From: Bacillus sp. FJAT-22090
GTDB taxonomy: Bacteria > Bacillota > Bacilli > Bacillales_A > Planococcaceae
Assembly (NCBI RefSeq): GCF_001278755.1
Contig: NZ_CP012601.1
Coordinates: 1,488,001 to 1,552,000, forward strand
Direction of reading: 5' to 3'
Length of the DNA stretch: 64,000 nt
The notes beneath the pieces are model-generated. The model saw only the letters and a program-made list of their open reading frames with translations. It made no database searches and was not told the origin of the DNA. Position 1 is the first letter of the stretch, and the number at the start of each line of letters is the position of its first letter. The translations under genes and the position numbers were made by a program. Below are positions 25,947 to 38,207 of this stretch, piece after piece.

Positions 25947-26732
25947 TTAAAGATACTTATATAATACTTCTCTTCTATCTTGAAATATAGGAATTCTTTT
26001 TCGAACATCTTCAATTTCATTTATATCAATATCCACTAGTTTAACCTTTTCTTCATTTTCGCCTACCCACAATACTTCTCCCCAAGGGGCTATTACCATC
26101 GAATTACCATTAAATGAATTGTTTGGATCACTTCCTACACGGTTTACAGCAACAATAAAAATTTGATTTTCAATAGCTCTTGCCTGCAACAATATTTTCC
26201 AGTGATCAATTCGTGCATCTGGCCATTGAGCTGGAATAAACATTACCTTTGCACCACTTAATGCATGAGCTCGTGTCCATTCAGGGAAGCGTAAATCATA
26301 ACAAATAATTCCACCCATTTTGACACCATCTAATGTAAATAGGTTCTTTTCATTACCTTCTTCCAAATAATGGTGTTCATCCATTAATTTAAATAGGTGT
26401 GCCTTGTTATATTCGGAAATTATCTCTCCATGAGAATTTGTAACGTACATTGTATTGTAAAACTGATCCCCTTTTTTGGTAGAAACAGATCCCCCAACTA
26501 TATGAATGTTTAATTCTTTGGACAATCGAGAAAATAATTTTTTCGTAGTTTCGCCTTCCAAGTCCGCGATTTCTTTTAATCTCTTTAAATCATACCCTGT
26601 ATTCCACATCTCTGGTAATACAACAATTTTAGCTCCTAAAGAGGCTGCTTCTCTTACTTTTTCTTCAACCTTCAAAAAATTTTCTTTTGGCGCTCCAAAC
26701 GCAATATCTAATTGAACACATGCAACTTTCAT
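25947..26732 (-). CDS. mtnU: Nitrilase-family omega-amidase, methionine salvage type
   Basis: 261 residues of the carbon-nitrogen hydrolase family with the complete triad: Glu41 (VVLPEMWNTG), Lys110 (EYNKAHLF) and Cys144 (IICYDLRFPEW). It would hydrolyse 2-oxoglutaramate or the ketoacid amide made when glutamine is the amino donor of MtnE. The ATG at 26732 is chosen for AGGTGG seven bases upstream. Pairing with mtnE repeats the B. subtilis mtnU/mtnE (ykrU/ykrV) arrangement, which supports the specific role. Confidence 0.85.
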   Translation of the reverse strand: MKVACVQLDIAFGAPKENFLKVEEKVREAASLGAKIVVLPEMWNTGYDLKRLKEIADLEGETTKKLFSRLSKELNIHIVGGSVSTKKGDQFYNTMYVTNSHGEIISEYNKAHLFKLMDEHHYLEEGNEKNLFTLDGVKMGGIICYDLRFPEWTRAHALSGAKVMFIPAQWPDARIDHWKILLQARAIENQIFIVAVNRVGSDPNNSFNGNSMVIAPWGEVLWVGENEEKVKLVDIDINEIEDVRKRIPIFQDRREVLYKYL

Positions 26733-26817
26733 TTCGCCACCACCTATAGACATAATACTAAAAAGATTATAAGATTTGTCTAATCTATGCAACTATTTAG
26801 AAAAAGAGGTATCACAC

Positions 26818-27981
26818 ATGGAATTTTCAAATCGACTAAAAAATTTACCTACTCAATTTTTTGCAACACTTGTTCAAAAAGTAGCATTAGCTGTGTCAGA
26901 AGGAAGAGATGTCATAAACTTAGGTCAGGGCAATCCAGATCAACCTACTCCTGAACATATAGTTAGAGCATTGCAAGATGCAGCAACAAATCCTTTAGCA
27001 CACAAATACTCCCCTTTTCGAGGAATAAATGAGTTAAAACAATCAGCTGCAGACTTTTATAAACGTGAGTACAATGTAGAAATAGATCCATATTCCGAAG
27101 TAGCAATAATGTTCGGAACGAAGATTGGTCTAGTTGAATTACCATTAGCGATGATGAACGAAAATGAACTAATGCTCTTACCAGATCCAGGTTATCCAGA
27201 TTACTTATCAGGTGTGGGGCTAGCAAGTGTTCGATTTGAAACAATGCCTTTACTAGAAGAAAACAACTTTCTTCCTGATTACAGTAAATTAACAGAAATA
27301 CAAAAAGAAGATGCGAAGTTAATGTACTTAAATTATCCAAATAATCCTACTGGGGCAACTGCAACAAAGGATTTTTTTGAAGAGACTGTTGCACTTGCAA
27401 AAGAATCAGATATAGCGATTGTTCACGACTTTGCCTATGGAGGAATTGGTTTTGACGGTCAAAAACCTATCAGCTTTTTACAGGTTGAAGGTGCAAAAGA
27501 TGTAGGTATAGAGATGTATACCCTTTCCAAAACTTATAATATGGCGGGTTGGAGGGTTGGCTTCGCAGTTGGAAACCCAAAAATAATTGAAGCGATCAAT
27601 ATTATTCAAGATCATTTATTTGTTAGTCTGTTCCCTGCAATCCAAACTGCTGCCGCTGCAGCACTAAATGAGAGCCAGGAATGTGTCGATGAACTTGTTT
27701 CTTTGTATGAAGGTAGAAGAAATGCATTAGTAGATGCTTGCTCAAAAATAGGATGGAATGTCAAAGCACCAAAAGGCTCCTTTTTTGCATGGTTACCAGT
27801 TGCAAAAGGTTACACAAGTCAAGAATTTGCAGACTTACTTTTAGAAAAAGCCGATGTCGCTGTAGCTCCTGGAAATGGTTTCGGATCCTTTGGCGAAGGC
27901 TATGTCCGTGTTGGGTTATTAGTGGATGAAGTTCGATTGGTAGAAGCTATAAATCGTATTGAAAAACTAAATCTATTTTAA
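26818..27981 (+). CDS. mtnE: Methionine salvage aminotransferase
   Basis: Class I PLP aminotransferase, 387 residues, that converts 2-oxo-4-methylthiobutanoate to methionine, the last step of methylthioadenosine recycling. The PLP lysine is Lys238 in TLSKTYNMAGWR; NYPNNPTGA (about 172) and the start DVINLGQGNPDQPTPEHIV are as in B. subtilis MtnE/YkrV. The start at 26818 follows AGAGGT at seven bases. Divergent from mtnU with only 85 bases between. No S-box was seen directly before it. Other class I aminotransferase roles remain possible. Confidence 0.87.
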   Translation: MEFSNRLKNLPTQFFATLVQKVALAVSEGRDVINLGQGNPDQPTPEHIVRALQDAATNPLAHKYSPFRGINELKQSAADFYKREYNVEIDPYSEVAIMFGTKIGLVELPLAMMNENELMLLPDPGYPDYLSGVGLASVRFETMPLLEENNFLPDYSKLTEIQKEDAKLMYLNYPNNPTGATATKDFFEETVALAKESDIAIVHDFAYGGIGFDGQKPISFLQVEGAKDVGIEMYTLSKTYNMAGWRVGFAVGNPKIIEAINIIQDHLFVSLFPAIQTAAAAALNESQECVDELVSLYEGRRNALVDACSKIGWNVKAPKGSFFAWLPVAKGYTSQEFADLLLEKADVAVAPGNGFGSFGEGYVRVGLLVDEVRLVEAINRIEKLNLF

Positions 27982-28059
27982 TAAAAATATCGATTTACTT
28001 TTGTAAATTGCTCAGATTGTAGAATAACTCGAATTATTATTATAAAGGATAAATTAGGT

Positions 28060-28182
28060 TTTCCGAAGCTTACCGCTCGCTTTCCGCGGGCGAGCGCCGA
28101 GCCTCCTCCGCAGCTCTCGCTACGTGCGGGGTCTCGTCTGTCTCGCTTTCCCGCAGGAGTCGAGCGGACGCTTTTCCAAACC
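28060..28182. repeat. GC-rich dispersed repeat, copy 3
   Basis: About 120 GC-rich bases between mtnE and its distant terminator: CGCTTTCCGCGGGCGAGCG at the left and CCCGCAGGAGTCGAGCG at the right, with GAGCCTCC and GGGGTCTCG between. Related to 23310-23424 and 39408-39512. A 68-codon open frame across it is a by-product of the GC content. Confidence 0.75.
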
Positions 28183-28300
28183 AATAAATGCTACCATATT
28201 ATCTTCTATTTACGTTAGAAAGAATAATTTTGAGTAGTACAGACGACTTAAAATCATAATAACGAACTAGAGTTAGCAAACTTCCTTTTTTCTACAACCT

Positions 28301-28336
28301 ACCCGACCGAATTACTTTTGTAAATCGGGTTTTTTA
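28301..28336 (+). terminator. Terminator downstream of mtnE
   Basis: Stem ACCCGA (28301-28306) / TCGGGT (28325-28330) followed by TTTTTT on the plus strand. It is 320 bases after the mtnE stop, beyond the repeat, which may have been inserted between gene and terminator. Confidence 0.65.
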
Positions 28337-28849
28337 TTACAGTTTATTTGTTGAAGTTTTATTAGAATCCACTGGGTAAAATTGGTTTGCTCCTGTTTCC
28401 TCATCAAACTTACGATGAAACTCCATTCCAGTAACTTCAGCTAAAACTATATCAACCGTAATAACAGGGGTTTCTCCTTTGATAAAATGACCTCCAAAAA
28501 TGTTGCCATGTTGGTCACACATGGACCCGTGAAAATGAGTTTCGTATTCCCCTTCCCTTTTACATACAACACCTGTCCCTTGTAAAAATTCTATTGGTCC
28601 CTCTTTTACTATAAGGTCATTATATCCAACACCAATTTTAGAGCTTTTATTCGGTACAAGATAAACAAAACCACTTCGTTGAAAACTTCCAAAACAACTT
28701 ATGATTGTTGCATATTCAATATAATTTACTTTACATAATTGCTCAATTCCTTCTAGTAAATCTGTTCCATAAATTAGTCTTGCACCAACAGTTTTACCTA
28801 ACTGACCAGTGGCATAATTTGCTCTTATTAAAGACATAAAATTCATCAT
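28337..28849 (-). CDS. PPC/DUF296 domain protein
   Basis: 170 residues. The C-terminal half carries the DUF296 (PPC) block: ETHFHGSMCDQHGNIFGGHF (about residues 103-122), then the TVDIVLAEVTG strand. In plants this domain is part of AT-hook proteins; bacterial ones are trimeric proteins of unknown role, sometimes metal-binding through these His residues. The start is uncertain: AGGG lies close to the first two ATGs and 12 bases before a third (28837). It lies between mtnE and the S-box operon but on the opposite strand. Confidence 0.75.
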   Translation of the reverse strand: MMNFMSLIRANYATGQLGKTVGARLIYGTDLLEGIEQLCKVNYIEYATIISCFGSFQRSGFVYLVPNKSSKIGVGYNDLIVKEGPIEFLQGTGVVCKREGEYETHFHGSMCDQHGNIFGGHFIKGETPVITVDIVLAEVTGMEFHRKFDEETGANQFYPVDSNKTSTNKL

Positions 28850-28919
28850 CCCTGCATATTTATTTATTGATAATAACTTTAAACTAACCCGACTGAAAAT
28901 TTCAACTAGAAAAAATTTG

Positions 28920-28948
28920 TTGACTTTAATAAGTTGATGTAGTAAATT
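28920..28948 (+). promoter_or_regulatory. Sigma-A promoter of the S-box met operon
   Basis: -35 TTGACT (28920-28925), 17-base spacer, -10 TAAATT (28943-28948). Transcription would begin near 28955, about 33 bases before the riboswitch P1 stem. Confidence 0.6.
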
Positions 28949-28987
28949 AACTTTTATGGAATAGCTGAAAAATTAAATAGCTTTTAT

Positions 28988-29149
28988 CTCTTATCAAGAG
29001 TAGCTGAGGGACTGGCCCGTTGAAGCTCGGCAACCATCTACATTTTTAATGTAGAAAGGTGCTAAATCCTGCAAAACATTTGTTTTGACAGATAAGAGAG
29101 GACAATCATATTTTTGTATGCCTCTCTTTCTGTGAAAGAGAGGCTTTTT
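28988..29149 (+). promoter_or_regulatory. SAM-I (S-box) riboswitch
   Basis: Aptamer 28988-29098: P1 arms CTCTTATC (28988-28995) and GATAAGAG (29091-29098), the conserved AGAGTAGCTGAGGGACTGGC block with its kink-turn, GAAGCTCGGCAACC, and an AAAGGTGCTAAATCC P3/P4 junction. AAGAGAGG (29094-29101), the 3' side of P1 and beyond, can pair with CCTCTCTT (29121-29128), the 5' arm of the terminator: a classical antiterminator switch. SAM binding favours P1 and termination; low SAM allows read-through into metQ. All parts are visible in the sequence. Confidence 0.97.
29120..29149 (+). terminator. Riboswitch-controlled terminator
   Basis: Perfect 11-base arms GCCTCTCTTTC / GAAAGAGAGGC with a TGT loop, then TTTTTA. 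Expression platform of the SAM riboswitch, 43 bases before the metQ ATG. Confidence 0.95.
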
Positions 29150-29191
29150 ATATTTATTCAACAGTACTAATAAATTATAGGAGGAAAAGAA

Positions 29192-30019
29192 ATGAAAAAA
29201 TTGGGTTTGCTTTTATCAACAGTACTTTTATCTGGAGCACTTGCAGCATGTGGGGATAGCTCTAGTGAAGGAGAAAAAACGGAAGCGTTAAATGAGAAAA
29301 AATTAGTAGTAGGAGTTACAGCAGGTCCCCATGAACAAATTGTTGAAGTTGCAAAAGAAGTAGCTGCAAAAGACGGTCTGGAAATTGAATTAAAAGTTTT
29401 CTCTGATTACATACTTCCAAACACTGCACTATCTGAAGAAGACTTAGATGCTAACAGTTATCAGCATGAGCCCTTCTTAAATACTTTTAATGAAGACCAT
29501 GGAACAGATTTAGTACCAGTTGGGAAAACAATTCTAAATCCTATGGGAGTTTACTCAGACAAATTTGACTCAATAGATGATCTTCCAGACGGAGCAACTT
29601 TTGGTTTACCTAACGATCCAACTAACGGCGCTCGTGCACTATACATTTTAGAAGAACATGGACTAATCAAAATAAAAGAGGATAAAAGAGAAACTGCTTC
29701 CATCTATGATCTAGAAGAAAATCCAAAAAATTTAAAATTCATTGAGCTAGAAGCAGCACAAATTCCTAAACAGTTAAGCGAAGTTGATGCAGCAGCAATC
29801 AACACTAACTTTGCTTTAGATGCGGGTATTAATCCAAAAGAAGATTCTATTTTACTAGAGTCATCTAATTCACCTTATGTAAACTACATTGTTGTACGCG
29901 CTGAGAATAAAGACGACCCAACGATTCAAAAGTTTGTAAAAGCATATCAATCAGAAGAAGTTAAAAAATTCATCGAAGAAGAATTTCAAGGTTCTGTATT
30001 ACCTAGCTGGGAAGAGTAG
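29192..30019 (+). CDS. metQ: Methionine ABC transporter, substrate-binding lipoprotein
   Basis: Receptor for D/L-methionine, 275 residues. The signal peptide ends in lipobox LAAC (Cys20-21 region, SGALAACGDSS). The mature chain KLVVGVTAGPHEQI and the ANSYQHEPFLN block (about residue 87) are NlpA/MetQ family marks. RBS AGGAGG at 29179. First gene after the S-box, so expression follows SAM starvation. A 12-base hairpin follows before metN. Confidence 0.96.
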   Translation: MKKLGLLLSTVLLSGALAACGDSSSEGEKTEALNEKKLVVGVTAGPHEQIVEVAKEVAAKDGLEIELKVFSDYILPNTALSEEDLDANSYQHEPFLNTFNEDHGTDLVPVGKTILNPMGVYSDKFDSIDDLPDGATFGLPNDPTNGARALYILEEHGLIKIKEDKRETASIYDLEENPKNLKFIELEAAQIPKQLSEVDAAAINTNFALDAGINPKEDSILLESSNSPYVNYIVVRAENKDDPTIQKFVKAYQSEEVKKFIEEEFQGSVLPSWEE

Positions 30020-30028
30020 ATAATATTC

Positions 30029-30058
30029 GAAAACGTTACCGACCTTGGTAACGTTTTC
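30029..30058 (+). terminator. Hairpin between metQ and metN (partial terminator or mRNA stabiliser)
   Basis: Arms GAAAACGTTACC (30029-30040) and GGTAACGTTTTC (30047-30058), six-base loop, followed only by TTT. Likely lowers expression of metN relative to metQ. The arm also resembles a CcpA cre half-match (12 of 14), which I take as incidental to the stem. Confidence 0.6.
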
Positions 30059-30078
30059 TTTAGAAAGGAAGACAAACA

Positions 30079-31098
30079 ATGATTGTATTAGAAAATATAT
30101 CGAAAGAATTTAACAGCAAGAATGGCATTGTAAAAGCAGTGAAAAATGTCAATATTCATGTAAAAAAAGGCGAAATTCATGGAGTAATAGGATACAGCGG
30201 GGCCGGAAAGAGTACTCTCATTCGTTGCGTAAACCTGCTAGAAAAACCTACTCAAGGTAAAGTTATCATTAACGGCAAGGAAGCTACCTCCCTTCCCCTT
30301 CCTAAACTAAGAGAAGTCCGAAATAAAATCGGAATGATTTTCCAAGGATTCAACTTATTAAAAACAGCTACTGTTTACGATAATATAGCCATCCCTCTAA
30401 AACTTCTTGGGTATGATCAAACAGAAGTAAAAACGAGAGTAAACAAATACTTAGAAATTGTAGGGCTGACAGATAAACACCATAACTATCCAAATCAATT
30501 ATCAGGTGGTCAAAAGCAAAGGGTCGCAATTGCACGTGCTCTTGCGCAAGAACCGGAAGTGTTATTAAGTGACGAAGCAACTAGTGCGCTTGATCCTGAA
30601 ACAACCGATTCTATCTTAGAACTATTATTAAAAATTAATAGAGAACTAGGAATAACAATTTTACTGATCACGCATGAAATGAATGTGATTCAAAAGATTT
30701 GTGATTATGTATATGTAATGGAAAATGGAGAAGTGGTTGAGCAGAACACTGCTATTAATCTATTCACTAAACCAAGTCATCCAACTACTAAAAAGTTTTT
30801 AAGTACAATTAGTCAGCGAAATCTCTCTCCTACTTTGATCACTCAGTTAAATGTTACAGGAGCTGTTACACGTTTAACTTTTGTTGGAGAAAGTACAGGT
30901 AAGCCTCTACTCGCAGAAGTTAGCCAAAAATTCAATGTTCAGCCAAATATTTTAACTGCTAATATTATTGAATTAAAAAATGGGATCGTTGGAAACATTG
31001 TCGTTCATTTAATTGGTGTGAAGGAACAAGTAAATGCTGCACTAAAATTTCTCGAAGACCACGGAGTTGGTACTGAGGATTTGGAGGGACAATCATGA
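30079..31098 (+). CDS. metN: Methionine ABC transporter, ATPase
   Basis: 339 residues. Walker A GYSGAGKST (about residue 38), signature LSGGQKQRVAIARAL (about 141), Walker B VLLSDEATSALDP (about 162), switch His in LITHEM. The C-terminal 80 residues form the NIL domain that binds methionine and inhibits transport in MetN homologues. RBS AAAGGAAG. The last four bases overlap metP (ATGA), showing coupling. Confidence 0.97.
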   Translation: MIVLENISKEFNSKNGIVKAVKNVNIHVKKGEIHGVIGYSGAGKSTLIRCVNLLEKPTQGKVIINGKEATSLPLPKLREVRNKIGMIFQGFNLLKTATVYDNIAIPLKLLGYDQTEVKTRVNKYLEIVGLTDKHHNYPNQLSGGQKQRVAIARALAQEPEVLLSDEATSALDPETTDSILELLLKINRELGITILLITHEMNVIQKICDYVYVMENGEVVEQNTAINLFTKPSHPTTKKFLSTISQRNLSPTLITQLNVTGAVTRLTFVGESTGKPLLAEVSQKFNVQPNILTANIIELKNGIVGNIVVHLIGVKEQVNAALKFLEDHGVGTEDLEGQS

Positions 31099-31766
31099 AC
31101 AGATATGAACAGTTTACAGAGCAATGGTTACCGATTATCGGAAAATCAGTGATTGAAACATTCCAAATGGTTGGTATTTCACTGTTTTTCTCTGTCCTAA
31201 TCGGAATTCCTTTAGGAATTTTAATCGTATTAACTAGACCAGGTCAGGCATTACAAAATAAAGTTTTGTATCAAATTAGTAATTTATTTATTAACATAGT
31301 ACGTTCAGTTCCATTTATCATTTTACTCTTTTTTATACTTCCTTTTACGAAAATAATTGTTGGTACGACAATCGGTGTTAAAGGAGTTATAGTTCCATTA
31401 GTTATCTATACTGCTCCCTATATCGCACGTTTAATGGAATCCGCCTTACTTGAAGTAGAGAATGGTGTAATAGAGGCCTATACAGCGATGGGAATTAAAA
31501 CAAGATCGATTATTTGGCATGTACTATTAAGAGAAGCACGTCCTTCTATCATTTTAGGATTAACTATTTCAACAGTAAGTTTAATTGGCGCAACTGCCAT
31601 GGCTGGAATGGTCGGGGCTGGTGGACTTGGAGATTTAGCCTACCGTTTTGGACATTTACGTTACGAAGTTGATGTAATGTACGCTACTGTCTTTATTTTA
31701 ATTATCCTCGTACAAAGTATTCAATCCATCGGCAATAGATTAGCAGCTAGATTGAAGAAAGATTAA
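31095..31766 (+). CDS. metP: Methionine ABC transporter, permease
   Basis: 223 residues with five transmembrane helices and the binding-protein-dependent EAA loop (EAYTAMGIKTRSIIWHVLLREA, here about residues 134-155). Equivalent of E. coli MetI. Starts inside the metN stop. The next gene begins only 14 bases after its stop without any terminator, so the operon continues. Confidence 0.95.
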   Translation: MNRYEQFTEQWLPIIGKSVIETFQMVGISLFFSVLIGIPLGILIVLTRPGQALQNKVLYQISNLFINIVRSVPFIILLFFILPFTKIIVGTTIGVKGVIVPLVIYTAPYIARLMESALLEVENGVIEAYTAMGIKTRSIIWHVLLREARPSIILGLTISTVSLIGATAMAGMVGAGGLGDLAYRFGHLRYEVDVMYATVFILIILVQSIQSIGNRLAARLKKD

Positions 31767-31780
31767 TCGGAGGTTTTCAT

Positions 31781-32557
31781 ATGACTAACTATTTGTATAT
31801 TGAACGTAAAGGATCAATCGCTACTCTCATTATTAATCGAGCAGAGAAGAAAAACTCTTTTTCACTCGCTATGTTTAAACAGCTAGGTAATATTTTGGAT
31901 GAGCTCGAAAGTGATTCTAATATAAAAATATTAATTTTAAAAGGTGTGGACGAATCAGCCTTCTCTTCTGGAGCTGACATATCGGAATTCCTTGAAAATC
32001 GTTTTTCTGCACAAAAAGCAAAAGATTATAATGATGCAACTTTGGAGTCTATCGAGAAATTATATCGTTTTCCTAAACCAACAATTGCTCTTATTAAAAC
32101 ATTAGCAATTGGTGGTGGATTAGAGTTAGCTAATTCTTGTGATTTTAGATTTGCTACCTCAGGAAGTAAACTTGGTATTACCGCTTCAAATATCGGAATT
32201 ATTTATAACTTAACAAGTACTAAGCGTTTAGTGAATTTAATCGGTCCTTCAAAAGCAAAAGAATTACTTTATACTGCTTCGTTAATCTCTGCTGAAGAAG
32301 GAAAAGAATTAGGTTTAATCGATTATGTATTTCCTATGGAAGAGATTGAAGAGAAATGTCTTGAGTTTGCCGAAAAAATTACCCGTAAATCATCTGTAGC
32401 AAATAATGGCATCAAGCAAGTAATCCAATCGATTATAGACGGTGAAAATGCAGAAACGAAAGAAATTGAACAACTAATTTTAGATTCATTCAGTTCAGAT
32501 GATTATAAAGAAGGAATTCAAGCATTTTTAGAGAAAAGAAAACCTAATTTTTCTTAA
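31781..32557 (+). CDS. Crotonase-fold protein (enoyl-CoA hydratase/isomerase family), atypical active site
   Basis: 258 residues with the crotonase fold. The oxyanion-hole elements are present (SSGADISEF about 62-70; AIGGGLELANSCD 109-121). Of the two hydratase acid/base residues, the first Glu is kept (Glu115) but the second, usually in a PE motif after the FG turn, is replaced (Thr134-Ala135). Straight hydration of enoyl-CoA is therefore doubtful; isomerase, decarboxylase, hydrolase or lyase reactions of the family are possible. AATCGGAGG precedes the ATG. Fourth gene of the S-box operon; substrate unknown. Confidence 0.85.
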   Translation: MTNYLYIERKGSIATLIINRAEKKNSFSLAMFKQLGNILDELESDSNIKILILKGVDESAFSSGADISEFLENRFSAQKAKDYNDATLESIEKLYRFPKPTIALIKTLAIGGGLELANSCDFRFATSGSKLGITASNIGIIYNLTSTKRLVNLIGPSKAKELLYTASLISAEEGKELGLIDYVFPMEEIEEKCLEFAEKITRKSSVANNGIKQVIQSIIDGENAETKEIEQLILDSFSSDDYKEGIQAFLEKRKPNFS

Positions 32558-32568
32558 GAGGTGAGCTC

Positions 32569-33711
32569 ATGTCAACTATAAAAAATAATGATTTGTTATT
32601 AGATAATATTGGTTCTAATGAAAAATACCCTATTAATTTTAGGGAATTAGAACAAGCTGCACAGGAAAAATTAGGTGCAGGTCCATTTGGTTACATCCGG
32701 TCATCTGCTGGCGGTGAAGAAACATATCGTAAAAATAGCAATTCATTTGAAAAATATTCTATTGTACCAAGATTTCTTACTGATGTTTCTACTTTAAATA
32801 CAGAAGTAACTATCCTTGGACATACATATCCTCATCCCCTTTTCATAGCTCCTGTAGGAGTAAATAAAATCGCACATGAGGATGGGGAAATTGCTGTTGC
32901 TAAAGCAGCGGCAAAATTTAATTATCCATATATACAAAGTACCGTTTCTAGTTATTCCATCGAAGAAATTGCAGATGCAACTAAAGGCAGTTCGAAATGG
33001 TTCCAATTATATTGGTCTCAAAACAAAGAAATTTCATTTAGCATGGTTAGGAGAGCAGAAGCTGCTGGGTATGAAGCAATTGTGTTAACGGTAGATACAG
33101 TTATGCTTGGTTGGCGTGAAGAAGATGTTCGAAATCAGTTCTCCCCACTTAAACGTGGTTTTGGTCAAGGAAATTATACTTCTGACCCTATTTTTATGGC
33201 TGCCCTTTCAGATCATTCGATGGATGCCATTATTGATAGTATGATAAAGAACATCTATCATCCTACTTTAAATTGGAACAATATCGAAGAATTAAGAGAG
33301 TATACTTCATTGCCGATTTTGCTAAAAGGTATTCTCCATCCAGAAGACGCAAAGCTAGCAATTGAAAAAGGGATAGATGGAATAATTGTTTCAAACCATG
33401 GTGGTCGTCAGTTAGATGGGGTTATCGCAAGTATCGATGCCCTTCCGGAAATAGTAGAAGTCGTAAAAGGGCAAATCCCCGTGCTATTCGACAGTGGCGT
33501 AAGACGAGGTTCAGATGCTGTAAAAGCTCTAGCACTAGGTGCAACTGCAGTTTGCATCGGACGTCCTTTTGTCTGGGGGCTTGCTAGTGGTGGGCAAGCT
33601 GGTGTGGAAAGGGTTCTTGAAAATTTCCTTCAAGAAACAAATGTGTCTATTTCTTTGAGTGGAGCACGTAATTTAGAGGAGCTTCGCAAATTAAAAATTG
33701 TTAGAAGCTAA
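32569..33711 (+). CDS. FMN-dependent 2-hydroxyacid oxidase, lactate 2-monooxygenase-like
   Basis: 380 residues of the alpha-hydroxyacid oxidase TIM-barrel family. The catalytic His and neighbouring Arg are in SNHGGRQLDG (about residue 276), followed by the FMN phosphate block PVLFDSGVRRGSDAVKALALGA and CIGRPFVWGLA. The N-terminal FRELEQAAQEKLGAGPFGYI and LTVDTVMLGWREEDVRN segments resemble actinobacterial lactate 2-monooxygenase more than lactate dehydrogenase LldD. It should oxidise (or oxidatively decarboxylate) a 2-hydroxyacid. Eleven bases after the crotonase gene, with GAGGTGAG as ribosome site. In this operon a methylthio-hydroxyacid substrate is attractive but unproven. Confidence 0.87.
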   Translation: MSTIKNNDLLLDNIGSNEKYPINFRELEQAAQEKLGAGPFGYIRSSAGGEETYRKNSNSFEKYSIVPRFLTDVSTLNTEVTILGHTYPHPLFIAPVGVNKIAHEDGEIAVAKAAAKFNYPYIQSTVSSYSIEEIADATKGSSKWFQLYWSQNKEISFSMVRRAEAAGYEAIVLTVDTVMLGWREEDVRNQFSPLKRGFGQGNYTSDPIFMAALSDHSMDAIIDSMIKNIYHPTLNWNNIEELREYTSLPILLKGILHPEDAKLAIEKGIDGIIVSNHGGRQLDGVIASIDALPEIVEVVKGQIPVLFDSGVRRGSDAVKALALGATAVCIGRPFVWGLASGGQAGVERVLENFLQETNVSISLSGARNLEELRKLKIVRS

Positions 33712-33739
33712 TGGCAGATTTAAAGGTGGGAAGTTGGAA

Positions 33740-34933
33740 ATGGAACAAGCTTTAAAAGGAATGAAAGTAATTGATTTATCACAAGTTCTTGCTGGTCCCT
33801 ATTGCACAATGGTGCTAGGAGATATGGGTGCTGATGTTATTAAAGTGGAAAAGTTTCCTAAGGGCGATGATACCCGAACAATGGGTCCATATATCAACGA
33901 AGAAAGTTATATGTATATGATGGTCAACCGAAATAAACGTGGGATATGTCTTAATTTGAAGAAAGAAGAAGGCTTGAAAATATTATATAAACTTATAAAA
34001 GATGCAGATGTCTTCATCGAGAATTATCGTCCAGGTGTTACGAAGAAACTTGGTATTGATTATAATTCGTTAAAGTCAATTAATCCTGCTATTATTTATT
34101 GTTCTATATCTGGTTATGGCCAAACTGGACCTTACAAGAATAAAGGTGGCTTTGATATTATGGCTCAAGGTCTCTCCGGTTTAATCGATATGACAGGAGA
34201 ACGCACTGGAAAGCCTGTAAAGGTAGGTATTGCAATCCATGATATCGCTGCAGCTCAAACAGCAATTCAATCTATATTAGCTGCATATATTCATCGATTG
34301 AAATCAGGAAATGGTCAGTATATTGACGTTTCGTTAGTAGATTCCGGACTTGCCTGGACTGTTTGGGAAGCTGCTGCATACTTTGGAAAAGGCGAGGTGC
34401 CAAGAAGGAATGGTACTGCACACCGAGTTTCTGCACCCTATCAAGGTTACAAAACGAAAGATGGATTTATTTTAATCGGTGCAGCCAATCAAAAGCTTTG
34501 GGAAAAATTTTGCTTATTAGTAGTAAATAAACCAGAGTGGATATCGGATGAACGATTTCTAACAAATAGTATACGTTCACTTCATGTCGATGAATTAGAA
34601 GTTGAAATTGAAAATATTTTAAAAGAACACGACTCATCCTATTGGCTGAATCTGTTAGATGAGCACGGTATTCCTTCAGGACCAATTTATTCATATGACC
34701 AAACTCTTTCGGATGAACACATACTTTCTAGAGAAATGATTTTAGATTATGAACACCCTGTAGCTGGTCCGATGAAGACACTTGGATTCCCTGCAAAATT
34801 CTCAGAAACACCTGGACAATTCAAGAGCCCTGCTCCACTATTGGGACAGCATAATAGTGAAGTGTTGAATGAGCTAGGATTTTCAGTAGAAGAAATTAGT
34901 GACCTTTTAAGTAAACAAGTAATTAATAAATAG
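33740..34933 (+). CDS. Family III (CaiB/BaiF) CoA-transferase
   Basis: 397 residues with the interlocked-ring family III fold. The start MKVIDLSQVLAGPYCTMVLG and the GADVIKVEKP-like strand (GADVIKVEKF) are typical. The catalytic Asp that forms the acyl-aspartyl anhydride is Asp168 (AIHDIAAAQTA). It moves CoA between carboxylic acids. The ATG at 33740 is chosen for GGTGGG nine bases upstream; the frame opens earlier without a ribosome site. Last gene of the S-box operon, closed by a strong terminator. Acyl substrate unknown. Confidence 0.88.
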   Translation: MEQALKGMKVIDLSQVLAGPYCTMVLGDMGADVIKVEKFPKGDDTRTMGPYINEESYMYMMVNRNKRGICLNLKKEEGLKILYKLIKDADVFIENYRPGVTKKLGIDYNSLKSINPAIIYCSISGYGQTGPYKNKGGFDIMAQGLSGLIDMTGERTGKPVKVGIAIHDIAAAQTAIQSILAAYIHRLKSGNGQYIDVSLVDSGLAWTVWEAAAYFGKGEVPRRNGTAHRVSAPYQGYKTKDGFILIGAANQKLWEKFCLLVVNKPEWISDERFLTNSIRSLHVDELEVEIENILKEHDSSYWLNLLDEHGIPSGPIYSYDQTLSDEHILSREMILDYEHPVAGPMKTLGFPAKFSETPGQFKSPAPLLGQHNSEVLNELGFSVEEISDLLSKQVINK

Positions 34934-34963
34934 GACCGAGTTCACAATCGGTCCTTTCTTTTT
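34932..34963 (+). terminator. Terminator of the S-box met operon
   Basis: Stem AGGACCGA (34932-34939) / TCGGTCCT (34948-34955), eight-base loop, then TTCTTTTT. It starts at the caiB-like stop codon and is the first full terminator after the riboswitch. Confidence 0.9.
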
Positions 34964-35855
34964 ACATATTAGCCATTAATCTTTTAGCAATTGCTGCATA
35001 TTCATCAGGTCCTATGCCAGGTGCAAATTCTTCAGGTTTTGACTCTAAATCAGGAATATCATATCCTTTTGGACTACCTTCTTTTACAAAGAGCTGATCC
35101 CCACTTGCTGGATTAGTCCCTTTCCAAATATATTTTATATCTTTATAGTCGCCTACATTATTCCATGTGAATAATACGTTTCCGTAACCACGTTCCTCAT
35201 ACTTTCTTGCTTGATCAAAAACGCGATTATCTAAACTTGGAATAGGAAGCATTGTTGTCACATCTGTTCCTGTTGCCATTTCTATCGCTTTTGCATACGC
35301 AAGAATATGAGTACCTCCACGAACAAGTAAATAGCCAATTAATTCTCTAGCAGCAGGGTGGTCTGTCATCTCATATACACGCATTTTATGTGTACGAGCG
35401 CCACATTCTAAGAAAAAGTTATGAAGCAAGTCTAGTACCAAGTTTCCACTTGAAAACACATAGTCTCCTCTCCATGGATTACCCATTGAATCTCCAGCTA
35501 AAGAAGTCTGTGCATTTGCAATGAAGGCATAGGTGTTCCGTATATCTGTAGCATTTTGAAGCGGAGTTATATCTGGGTCTCCGGCAAAAGAAGTTCCTTT
35601 ATGCAAAAGATTAATTGTATTGGAGACAAGCTCTACATGACCAAATTCCTCTGCTGTGATACTGGCAACCAAATCATAAAAAGGCTTTAATTTTGATTTC
35701 CCTCTGAAGTTAAAGGATTGGTACATATAATTATTTAATGTGGACATTTCACCAAATTTTCCACCTAACAGCTCTTGAACAGCCGAAGCAGCATTTGCAT
35801 CACCATATTCTACGTTGGGAAGTTCTATTAATAGCTTGTTTACACGTTGAAACAT
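34962..35855 (-). CDS. Manganese catalase
   Basis: 297 residues of the ferritin-like dimanganese catalase family. MFQRVNKLLIELP is the usual start; metal ligands are recognisable in VQELLGGKFGEMSTLNNY (Glu), ITAEEFGHVELV (Glu, His) and LLHNFFLECGARTHKMRVYEM (Glu, His). It disproportionates hydrogen peroxide without heme. The ATG at 35855 has AGGAG seven bases upstream, and the longer frame overlaps the neighbouring gene. It follows the DUF2642 gene by 16 bases. In Bacilli such catalases often sit in the spore coat, which fits this partner. Confidence 0.93.
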   Translation of the reverse strand: MFQRVNKLLIELPNVEYGDANAASAVQELLGGKFGEMSTLNNYMYQSFNFRGKSKLKPFYDLVASITAEEFGHVELVSNTINLLHKGTSFAGDPDITPLQNATDIRNTYAFIANAQTSLAGDSMGNPWRGDYVFSSGNLVLDLLHNFFLECGARTHKMRVYEMTDHPAARELIGYLLVRGGTHILAYAKAIEMATGTDVTTMLPIPSLDNRVFDQARKYEERGYGNVLFTWNNVGDYKDIKYIWKGTNPASGDQLFVKEGSPKGYDIPDLESKPEEFAPGIGPDEYAAIAKRLMANM

Positions 35856-35871
35856 ATAGTCTCTCCTTCCC

Positions 35872-36108
35872 TCATAGCGCTTGTGTAACCCAAACAATTT
35901 GCTGGTTTCGTATAAAAAAAGGAGTGCCGCTAACATCTAATACAATGTGATCCGGAGTTAACATTGTTAATATACCTTGAAGTGTACTTCTAGTAGTTTG
36001 AACTGCAATATGTTTTCCATTCAATCTCATAAGTTGTTGGTAAAGATAAGATTCAACATTACTTACAAAGACAACATTCGGCTGTGAATTTGGATTAACT
36101 TTAACCAT
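35872..36108 (-). CDS. DUF2642 family protein, possibly spore-coat associated
   Basis: 78 residues. The GKHIAVQTTRSTLQGILTMLTPDHIVLD core is the DUF2642 beta-barrel-like pattern, followed by FFIRNQQIVWV. Proteins with this domain occur in spore coat and coat-related clusters; biochemical role unknown. It is the first gene of a pair with the manganese catalase, suggesting the small protein helps place or assemble the catalase. Confidence 0.75.
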   Translation of the reverse strand: MVKVNPNSQPNVVFVSNVESYLYQQLMRLNGKHIAVQTTRSTLQGILTMLTPDHIVLDVSGTPFFIRNQQIVWVTQAL

Positions 36109-36145
36109 CCTTTCTATACAATCACACTAGTGTATGAGTTGAATA

Positions 36146-36174
36146 TTTATATGGTGACAATTAAGTGGTATGAT
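36146..36174 (+). promoter_or_regulatory. Promoter of the ypsA unit
   Basis: -35 TTTATA (36146-36151), 17-base spacer, -10 TATGAT (36169-36174), 36 bases upstream of the ypsA ATG. Confidence 0.45.
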
Positions 36175-36209
36175 AAAATATAGATGTAAAATAAAGTAGG
36201 TCGAAAAGA

Positions 36210-36776
36210 ATGACAAAACGTTTAGTTATAACTGGTTATAAAGCACATGAATTGGGTATTTTTAATGACTCACATGCAGGAATACCTATTATAAAAAGAG
36301 CAATATACAATCAATTGCTTTTACTAATGGATGAGGGTCTTGAATGGGTAATATTAAGTGGTCAACAAGGGGTTGAAACTTGGGCTGCCGAAGTATTACT
36401 AGAGATGAAAGTCGATTTTCCGCATTTAAAATTAGCTATAATAACCCCTTTTCTGGAACAAGAAAAAAATTGGAATGAGCAAAAACAAGAAAAGTATAGA
36501 AATTTGCTTTTTCAAGCGGATTATCAAACGAGTATTACTAAAAGTCCTTACGAGGCACCATGGCAATTCATCGAAAAAAATAAATTCCTACTTAGAAATT
36601 CGGATGGAATTCTAATTGTCTACGACGAAGAAAACGAAGGGTCTCCCAAATATTTTAAAAAACTTGCACAACAATTTGCTGAAAAAGAAAACTACTCTTT
36701 ATTCATAATTGATGCATATGACCTTCAAGTGATAGCAGAAGAAATCGCAGAGGAAGAAAGGAATAATTATTTATGA
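36210..36776 (+). CDS. ypsA: YpsA-like SLOG-family protein (DUF1273)
   Basis: 188 residues with the Rossmann-like SLOG fold. It has TGYKAHELGIF near the start, LSGQQGVETWAAEVLLE (about residues 49-65), TKSPYEAPWQF and NSDGILIVYDEE, all DUF1273 marks. SLOG proteins bind nucleotides or their derivatives; in B. subtilis YpsA affects cell division and is next to gpsB. Here gpsB is absent and a hypothetical gene follows with a four-base overlap. Confidence 0.85.
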   Translation: MTKRLVITGYKAHELGIFNDSHAGIPIIKRAIYNQLLLLMDEGLEWVILSGQQGVETWAAEVLLEMKVDFPHLKLAIITPFLEQEKNWNEQKQEKYRNLLFQADYQTSITKSPYEAPWQFIEKNKFLLRNSDGILIVYDEENEGSPKYFKKLAQQFAEKENYSLFIIDAYDLQVIAEEIAEEERNNYL

Positions 36777-37363
36777 TAACTGAAAAATTGTCCAAAAAAA
36801 TCAACGAAGCAAATGGCGCGGAAATTAATTTATTGATAGAAGAAAAAGATTATGCTGAAAGACATCAATTACTTTCTGCCGAACAAAAAGTAGTAATAAC
36901 TGAAAAAAATGAGCAGTTTTCTGATGCTATAATTGAACGATTCGTTAAAGAAACAGATGAAACGGTTTCTAAAGGTACTAAGGAATTTTTTCAATCTCCA
37001 CTTTCCCATGTCAAAGAAAACCAAACTGAATATGTATATGTAGAATCTAAAAGCTTTGATATTATTAATGTAGATGCTATTGCATTAGAATTCGACGAAG
37101 TATTTGAAGTATACACAGCAATGTTTGGATTAGCATTACAAAAGAAATTTGGTGGGTCTATACGAGATTACTTAAATCAACATTTTGATTCCGAAAAGAT
37201 GAACTATAGCTTAATGTTTTCTGGTGAAGATGGATTATGGGAAGTAAACTTACCACTAAATTATATGGCAGGATTTAACGAAGACACTACGATTGAACAA
37301 ACTTATCAATTTTTGTATTCCTATATCTTCTCATTAGTAGAAGCAGTAGAAAATAATAAATAA
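36773..37363 (+). CDS. Conserved hypothetical protein coupled to ypsA
   Basis: 196 residues, acidic, no membrane segments. Starts with ATGA overlapping the ypsA stop. The middle (IIERFVKETDETVSKGTKEF) and C-terminal half (FDEVFEVYTAMFGLALQKKF, then EDGLWEVNLPLNY) look globular. Similar proteins in related genomes have been labelled aminotransferase, but I see no PLP-binding motif and its length is far too short. No function assigned. Confidence 0.7.
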   Translation: MITEKLSKKINEANGAEINLLIEEKDYAERHQLLSAEQKVVITEKNEQFSDAIIERFVKETDETVSKGTKEFFQSPLSHVKENQTEYVYVESKSFDIINVDAIALEFDEVFEVYTAMFGLALQKKFGGSIRDYLNQHFDSEKMNYSLMFSGEDGLWEVNLPLNYMAGFNEDTTIEQTYQFLYSYIFSLVEAVENNK

Positions 37364-37370
37364 TACTTTA

Positions 37371-37409
37371 CAATCATGAATTCAACTATTCATGATTGTT
37401 TTATTTTTT
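37371..37409 (+). terminator. Terminator of the ypsA unit
   Basis: Arms CAATCATGAA (37371-37380) / TTCATGATTG (37389-37398), eight-base loop, then TTTTATTTTTT. Confidence 0.9.
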
Positions 37410-37421
37410 CCGTTTGTTTCT

Positions 37422-37450
37422 GGTGCCTGGCACTTGTAATGGATTTGTAA
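37422..37450 (-). repeat. GGTGCC-GGCACC dispersed element, copy A
   Basis: On the minus strand: TTACAAA, then CCATTAC and AAGTGCCAGGCACC ending the element. Same 29-base pattern as copies at 50077, 56759 and 60430. Located just after a terminator. Confidence 0.7.
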
Positions 37451-37562
37451 CATAGATTTTCTTGAATGTTTTAATTTCCCCTGTTTTATGCATATGAACG
37501 AATAATGTGGTCAAACTAATGAGGATGGTTTCATCACATTTTCTACAAGGAGGAATTATTGA

Positions 37563-38207
37563 ATGACTCAAAACCCATTTGGTCAAGGTCAAGCTCAAGG
37601 TCAAGGTCAAACTCATCAAAATATGCAAACCGGAAATATTTCTCAACAAATGAATCATGGTGGTCATGAAGTATTTGATGTTCATGAAGTTTTATCAACT
37701 GTTGTATCTGGTTTAAACTTGAAAACAATTTTACGTCCACATGTAAAAGACCAAGAATTGTTGAACATCTTGGATCGTCAATATGCATTTGCACTTGATG
37801 AATATAATATTACGGTTGAATGCTTTAAAACTGGACAAGACCCTTCACATCCAACAACAAGCTATAAAATGCAACAAGGCAACGACTTTGTATATGGAAC
37901 GAAGCCTTCTCAACCGAAAAAGCCTATGCAAAATGCAAATGAAATTAATGACGAAGCGATTTCTGGTTATTTACTTGGAGCGGCAAAAGCAGCTGCAACT
38001 ATCAAAACAGGTGCGGCTTTAGAAACTACAAACCCAGTAGTGCGTCGAGTTCTTGCAGATTCAATTCCAAACTGCATCGAAATGGCTTATGAGCTTTCGA
38101 TCTATCAAAACAAGCATCACTACTACCAAGTACCACAACTTGACCAACAAAGCATGCAAGCAATGTTAAACGCATATGCTCCTGTACAAGGAAAAATGAT
38201 GAGTTAA
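37563..38207 (+). CDS. cotF: CotF-family spore coat protein
   Basis: 214 residues. The N-terminal 35 residues are a low-complexity Gly/Gln/His stretch with repeated QGQA/QGQG units. The rest is the CotF/ferritin-like helical domain: FDVHEVLSTVVSGL, then HVKDQELLNILDRQY and NPVVRRVLADSIPNCIEMAYELSIYQNKHHYYQVP (cut here into motifs of about residues 155-190). Such proteins coat the spore. RBS AAGGAGGAA precedes the ATG at 37563. Its low-complexity opening is longer than in B. subtilis CotF. A sporulation sigma promoter is expected but I could not place one. Confidence 0.85.
   Translation: MTQNPFGQGQAQGQGQTHQNMQTGNISQQMNHGGHEVFDVHEVLSTVVSGLNLKTILRPHVKDQELLNILDRQYAFALDEYNITVECFKTGQDPSHPTTSYKMQQGNDFVYGTKPSQPKKPMQNANEINDEAISGYLLGAAKAAATIKTGAALETTNPVVRRVLADSIPNCIEMAYELSIYQNKHHYYQVPQLDQQSMQAMLNAYAPVQGKMMS

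Follow-up and report, generated by a model that had tools for sequence, protein, structure and literature searches.

A SAM riboswitch operon with a methionine-type importer, a 2-hydroxyacid oxidase and an exchangeable accessory module in Bacillus sp. FJAT-22090

The window analysed here comprises 64,000 nucleotides of Bacillus sp. FJAT-22090 (contig NZ_CP012601.1, positions 1,488,001 to 1,552,000) and sits within a single 4.21 Mb contig. At its centre, an S-adenosylmethionine (SAM)-I riboswitch, or S-box, precedes genes for a MetQNP-type importer, which are followed by genes for a crotonase-fold protein, a flavin mononucleotide (FMN)-dependent 2-hydroxyacid oxidase and a family III coenzyme A (CoA)-transferase. 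This arrangement, with intergenic gaps of 14, 11 and 28 bases after metP, had been described in the original prediction, and covariance model, gene coordinates and domain matches of the three added proteins all bear it out. The operon and its leader consist of the following features, in window coordinates:

28988..29098, + strand: SAM-I (S-box) riboswitch aptamer (RF00162, 92.1 bits, E 9.7e-21)
29094..29128, + strand: predicted antiterminator, 29094-29101 against 29121-29128, a perfect 8-base complement
29120..29144, + strand: intrinsic terminator of the riboswitch, 11-pair stem of -16.6 kcal/mol, then UUUUU
29192..30019, + strand: metQ, substrate-binding lipoprotein (PF03180; TIGR00363 254.6 bits, cut-off 228.85)
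30079..31098, + strand: metN, ATPase with NIL domain (PF00005, PF09383; best NCBIfam model TIGR02314, below cut-off)
31095..31766, + strand: metP/metI, permease (PF00528; best NCBIfam model NF008049, 204.4 bits, cut-off 212)
31781..32557, + strand: crotonase-fold protein without the presumed second catalytic Glu, accessory module (PF00378; GGGLE present, GITA at the second-Glu site)
32569..33711, + strand: FMN-dependent 2-hydroxyacid oxidase, core enzyme (PF01070, 423 bits; family residues present; Gly97)
33740..34933, + strand: family III CoA-transferase, accessory module (PF02515, 446 bits; presumed catalytic Asp column)
34932..34955, both strands: bidirectional intrinsic terminator at the operon end, 8-pair stem on each strand

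The covariance model scores the aptamer above its gathering cut-off of 44.4 bits. The 3' side of the P1 helix (AAGAGAGG, from 29094) is perfectly complementary to the 5' side of the terminator (CCUCUCUU, from 29121), and sequence and folding predict terminator and antiterminator to be mutually exclusive. This layout corresponds to the usual S-box arrangement, for which read-through at low SAM would be expected. Further downstream, the + strand carries three weak terminator-like sites between metQ and 34932, all of them inside genes (30317, 32891 and 32895), in agreement with the earlier claim that transcription meets no full terminator before the bidirectional one. Ribosome-binding-site-like stretches lie at the joins, and the start of the CoA-transferase was taken as ATG 33740, the open reading frame (ORF) in the list beginning at TTG 33698. 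Judged from this layout, co-transcription of metQ through the CoA-transferase gene is probable.

MetQ exceeds the cut-off of the MetQ/NlpA subfamily model. MetN falls short of the equivalog cut-off of TIGR02314 (374.6 against 499.7 bits), though this is its best family and the NIL domain is present. In the window MetQ, the asparagine of SPYVN that aligns with the residue mutated to alanine in 6cvl, which we take to be E. coli MetQ Asn229, is present, as is the arginine of the NDPTN..R motif. Among relatives the pocket motifs vary, with histidine replaced by threonine or serine in ten listed loci. The window genome has four MetQ-family matches, three of them above cut-off.

Altogether 12 S-boxes were found in this genome. 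Genes behind the other eleven, assigned by eye with three proteins checked, include a metA-like gene, metI-metC, homocysteine methyltransferase/reductase with metH, a canonical metNPQ operon (L099), O-acetylhomoserine sulfhydrylase with homoserine dehydrogenase, mtnW-X-B-D, mtnK-A and metK. Since a canonical S-box metNPQ operon stands elsewhere, the operon studied here is a second S-box importer, and its switch is common to other scavenging operons. Like the S-box metNPQ operons of Bacillota, of which L099 is a canonical example in the same genome, it has a MetQ/N/P importer behind a SAM-I riboswitch; it differs from them by the three added enzyme genes and by the order Q-N-P where they have N-P-Q, and its MetQ pocket motifs depart from those of L099. 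Other S-boxes of the genome precede less familiar genes. One stands before an acyl-CoA-dehydrogenase-type flavoprotein with weak sulfinopropanoyl-CoA desulfinase and SfnB matches, together with an ATP-binding cassette importer (L096, 4806-5972 and downstream), possibly another SAM-controlled organosulfur scavenging operon. Unusual targets are an M20-type amidohydrolase (L097, 673-1908) and a DppA D-aminopeptidase/peptide importer operon, which lies behind its S-box with one short ORF between (L098, 1572-2402).

Conservation was surveyed in sets that were all collected by the oxidase, S-box metQNP operons without this enzyme lying outside the survey. Named genomes were scanned with an alignment of 18 oxidase sequences; 587 loci were confirmed, of which the best 80 were retained. 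In the class survey, 38 genomes had an oxidase match and 31 were examined with their surroundings (G178, G266, G293, G322, G347, G386 and G402 were left out). After removal of 8 duplicates between sets, the total came to 145 distinct oxidase loci, the window counted, with 43 directly behind metP (linked) and 102 unlinked. Co-occurrence across genomes, which the original prediction had named as a check, is indeed conserved: an S-box lies upstream in 36 of the 43 linked loci, across several families and with 86-106 bits in the relatives. It was not found in the other seven, namely L141 and L158, where the contig stops short of the leader and which were counted as lacking it, L015 and L147 of the hcxA type, and L027, L258 and L259 of the Brevibacillus type. 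An S-box also lies within the fetched stretch of seven unlinked loci (L023, L040, L052, L165, L280, L284, L285), in no case as leader of the oxidase.

Among the best 80 named loci, metP is directly upstream in 11, from nine genera (Psychrobacillus, Sporosarcina (two), Peribacillus, Planococcus, Oceanobacillus (two), Brevibacillus, Salirhabdus, Sutcliffiella and Evansella), and the gene order is the same in several genera. Nine of these 11 have a Rfam S-box (all except L015 and L027); both Oceanobacillus linked loci are without metQ nearby. The closest named relative of the window oxidase, at 95% identity, comes from Psychrobacillus. Within the window's family the oxidase occurs at E <=1e-70 in 41 of 151 genomes, and its 48 non-own matches divide by identity: the 28 with at least 56% lie behind metP, the 20 with at most 54% do not. 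An oxidase tree, built with a quick method and Shimodaira-Hasegawa-like approximate likelihood ratio (SH-aLRT) support only, requires the linked label to change 8 times, at least 6 of these changes being forced by well-supported branches, with the long branches L051, L279 and L289 of uncertain placement. The linked loci thus do not form a single simple clade. In L161 (7680-9722) a tandem metQ pair, each copy with its own S-box, is followed by metN-metP-oxidase. L143 (200-9500), a same-genus relative, has transposase-like ORFs (by eye) 5' of the S-box, an interrupted oxidase frame and neither crotonase, CoA-transferase nor PPC gene, an apparent decay of the system.

The oxidase shares the PF01070 family and the family residues with lactate oxidase and lactate 2-monooxygenase. 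It scores far under the L-lactate oxidase equivalog cut-off (TIGR02708, 288.3 against 645.5 bits), and Gly97 stands at the position of lactate oxidase Ala95, as in lactate monooxygenase (APVGV against APIGV). Its active-site loop, in an alignment read by eye, is of intermediate length: that of M. smegmatis lactate monooxygenase (6dvh) has about 10 residues more, that of lactate oxidase about 10 fewer. According to a title cited in PMC7039449, the exchange A95G turns lactate oxidase into a long-chain hydroxyacid oxidase.

Three neighbouring genes upstream of the operon bear on its surroundings:

28337..28849, - strand: PPC/PCC-domain protein, divergent (PF03479), co-occurring with the crotonase/CoA-transferase pair
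26776..27981, + strand: MtnE-type aminotransferase, own upstream unit, likely true start 26815 (NF005977, 679 bits, cut-off 494)
25947..26792, - strand: mtnU-like carbon-nitrogen hydrolase, presumably of the omega-amidase type, divergent to the aminotransferase (PF00795)

The three enzymes do not form one unit; the operon consists of an oxidase core and an exchangeable module, importer and oxidase gene being its constant part. Crotonase and CoA-transferase occur together in 26 of the 43 linked loci and are jointly absent from the other 17, and the pair is found without the oxidase in L257 and in other operons. The PPC-domain gene, overlooked earlier, accompanies the pair in 23 of 26 linked loci and is found in 0 of 17 loci without it (window counted; Fisher p about 3e-9, the genomes being related and not independent). 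Of the original prediction, the operon, the S-box and the linkage hold, the latter recurring in nine named genera; the idea of the trio as a single pathway is not supported.

Both accessory enzymes were aligned in 29 met-linked rows, which include two duplicates and L257. We take the conserved acidic columns of the crotonase to be the two catalytic glutamates of hydratases; the second is Ala or Pro in 29/29 rows, one acidic residue being kept. Ordinary hydration by this protein is hence unlikely, and a role as DmdD-type enoyl-CoA or methylthioacryloyl-CoA hydratase was dropped. The CoA-transferase is above the PF02515 cut-off and has the conserved Asp, presumably the catalytic one, in all 29 rows. 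A 2-methylacyl-CoA racemase role for it was also dropped, as the column that we take to be the racemase histidine position holds Phe or Tyr. In L260, L262, L265 and L273 (ORFs read by eye), related pairs share an operon with TctABC-like carboxylate importers, which suggests a general job, to activate an imported carboxylate and to act on its CoA ester. More widely, the crotonases of L260-L263, L265, L266 and L269-L273 carry GITP (or VTP) at the second-Glu site and mostly adjoin family III CoA-transferases, several in operons of TctABC-like importers.

The transaminase called mtnE in the original prediction lies above the cut-off of NF005977 (PRK08068), a model that presumably covers MtnE, and it is the single strong MtnE-type copy of the genome (872 bits, 250 for the next), apart from the other mtn genes (names by eye). 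An MtnE-type gene is present in the fetched stretch of 26/43 linked and 0/102 unlinked oxidase loci. For this count any match was accepted in linked rows and more than 50% identity required in unlinked ones; the unlinked tables held no match of any identity.

A second association involves relatives of E. coli HcxA (YbdH). HcxA-type dehydrogenase genes occur in none of the 26 linked loci with the pair and in 6 of the 17 without (p 0.002, again for related, not independent genomes); 11 of the 17 show neither module, L141 among them being cut off upstream. In L014, L048 and L289 the HcxA relative opens the gene row behind the S-box, with the L048 match falling in two pieces and its frame apparently interrupted. 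In L279 it neighbours an MtnE-type gene and is divergent from the S-box-metQNP-oxidase unit. With E. coli HcxA the L014 protein shares 41% identity; together with that of L279 it remains below the equivalog cut-off of NF007880, which we infer to be the E. coli HcxA model (305 and 297 against 429 bits), this still being the best family for both. No HcxA match was found in the window genome. In E. coli, hcxA is divergent to ybdL, annotated as methionine transaminase, and PMC3228920 describes ybdH as MetJ-regulated, of unknown function and co-occurring with methionine salvage genes. The two systems are alike in a hydroxycarboxylate dehydrogenase adjoining a methionine transaminase under SAM-dependent repression. 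They differ in the regulator, MetJ in E. coli and an RNA switch in the S-box relatives, which add importer and FMN oxidase; the window genome moreover is without the dehydrogenase.

We tentatively propose, giving this reading a chance slightly short of even, that the operon serves the SAM-repressed scavenging of 2-hydroxy-4-methylthiobutanoate (HMTB). At low SAM, the S-box would permit read-through, and the second, diverged MetQNP importer would take up the hydroxy acid, perhaps together with methionine. The FMN oxidase would then convert L-HMTB to 2-oxo-4-methylthiobutanoate (KMTB), which the MtnE encoded beside the operon would transaminate to methionine. Two alternative accessory modules, an HcxA-type dehydrogenase or, as in the window, the crotonase/CoA-transferase pair mostly with a PPC gene, probably widen the substrate range, for example by the D form or a further methylthio acid that requires CoA activation. 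We infer substrate and product, as well as the roles of crotonase, CoA-transferase and PPC protein, from sequence and gene context, and hydroxy-methionine would on this basis be the best single guess for the substrate. HMTB had already been put forward in the original prediction; the idea gains from the HcxA-type dehydrogenases encoded in part of these S-box operons. In animals, the L-HMTB oxidase belongs to the FMN hydroxyacid oxidase family, and the HMTB-oxidising enzymes reside in organelles, without a known link to a SAM switch. According to PMC6912822, the oxidation of HMTB in animals, by an L-2-hydroxy acid oxidase and a D-2-hydroxy acid dehydrogenase, precedes transamination. The role proposed for the bacterial oxidase would be analogous to that of the animal L-2-hydroxy acid oxidase, which gives the keto acid for transamination.

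Several observations weigh against this proposal. The conversion of HMTB to methionine requires neither CoA-transferase nor crotonase, and no MtnE-type gene was seen in 17/43 linked loci, some of them with short flanks. Gly97 is found in 43/43 linked and 98/102 unlinked oxidases; it is thus compatible with HMTB but does not single it out, and as proof of monooxygenase action it was dropped. Oxidases 59-64% identical in L016-L018, L020, L022 and L023 (Cytobacillus, Niallia and two others) are not behind metP, so that close relatives function outside this context. The Brevibacillus-type loci show metQNP-crotonase-oxidase-CoA-transferase without a detected S-box, which was likewise not detected in the hcxA-type loci L015 and L147. 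Moreover, Brevibacillus-type MetQ has lost SPY and the His of QH, with the Asn kept, and these clusters may hence import something else. L257, with metQNP-crotonase-CoA-transferase, likewise altered pocket motifs and neither S-box nor oxidase, is the strongest result against a serial action of the three enzymes and against a common methionine theme.

It is possible, though rather unlikely, that the MetQNP paralogue has switched to a carboxylate unrelated to methionine and that the S-box is a relic of an ancestral methionine transporter. The drift of the MetQ pocket, with the His to Thr/Ser exchanges in ten listed loci and the loss of SPY in Brevibacillus types, would fit such a change, as would the pairs in TctABC-like importer operons (by eye) and L257 without oxidase and S-box. 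However, an S-box kept at 86-106 bits in 36/43 linked loci of several families is unlike a relic, the window MetQ retains both the Asn and the NDPTN..R Arg, and the MtnE and HcxA relatives are methionine-linked.

We regard as improbable a decarboxylating route, also raised in the original prediction, in which a monooxygenase would turn HMTB into 3-methylthiopropanoate. After activation by the CoA-transferase and the action of an acyl-CoA dehydrogenase from outside the operon, the crotonase would free methanethiol, from which O-acetylhomoserine sulfhydrylase would form methionine. All three enzymes would thereby get a job; Gly97 stands where lactate monooxygenase has its glycine, and an O-acetylhomoserine sulfhydrylase-like gene (by eye) belongs to the same S-box regulon. 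The route is nevertheless weakened, because none of the 29 met-linked rows of the crotonase has the second catalytic glutamate. The active-site loop of the oxidase is also about 10 residues short of the M. smegmatis lactate monooxygenase, the operon lacks a dehydrogenase, the oxidase occurs without the pair in 17/43 linked loci, and the MtnE association points to KMTB.

Scarcely probable, in our view, is that crotonase and CoA-transferase replace HcxA by inverting D-HMTB via its CoA ester for an L-specific oxidase. No linked locus combines the pair with an HcxA relative (0/26 against 6/17), the crotonase keeps one catalytic acid residue, and some family III CoA-transferases, such as HadA and FldA, act on R-2-hydroxy acids. 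Yet no crotonase-family racemase of this kind is known to us, the loci are related and their count is not independent, 11 of the 17 pair-less linked loci have neither module (L141 cut off upstream), and the pair is also found in other operons. We would give just as little credence to the most far-reaching version, a complete and previously undescribed hydroxy-methionine salvage pathway in which the D form is handled either by an HcxA-type dehydrogenase or by CoA-dependent epimerisation assisted by the PPC protein. Finally, that the three genes are mere passengers with their own promoter, behind metP by chance, is very unlikely indeed: a weak promoter-like match (9/12) at 31774-31801 is a candidate internal promoter and crotonase and CoA-transferase are absent from 17/43 linked loci, but promoter-like sites are no commoner than in shuffles (47 over 26000-38000 against 44.1, standard deviation 6.7), the 14/11/28 gaps have ribosome-binding-site-like stretches and no strong terminator, and the order is kept in several genera.

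No description of this operon was found among the listed titles and abstract openings of the open-access literature searched, where partial coverage makes for weak evidence of absence; in PMC4239095 neither ybdH nor hydroxy, oxidase or CoA was found. The operon is more than a local curiosity. If the HMTB proposal is true, SAM riboswitches would bring hydroxy acids into methionine supply, a physiological substrate for HcxA/YbdH would be indicated, and the roles of the CoA-transferase-associated crotonase subfamily and of the bacterial PPC-domain protein would become testable. Epimerisation, if true, would add a new reaction to the crotonase family and assign a metabolic role to bacterial PPC-domain proteins. 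HMTB is a common feed additive and, according to PMC11306096, an intermediate of dimethylsulfoniopropionate (DMSP) synthesis and a methionine-salvage substrate, so that a bacterial route of uptake and oxidation would be of practical reach.

Next to the operon, a manganese catalase gene (34962-35936, PF05067) runs convergently and shares the bidirectional terminator. Its product could clear hydrogen peroxide from the oxidase; as a partner in this sense it was set aside, being convergent and present at high identity near the operon only in same-genus loci. Elsewhere in the window, the - strand of 998-1392 matches the cspA thermoregulator with 78.8 against a gathering score of 78.

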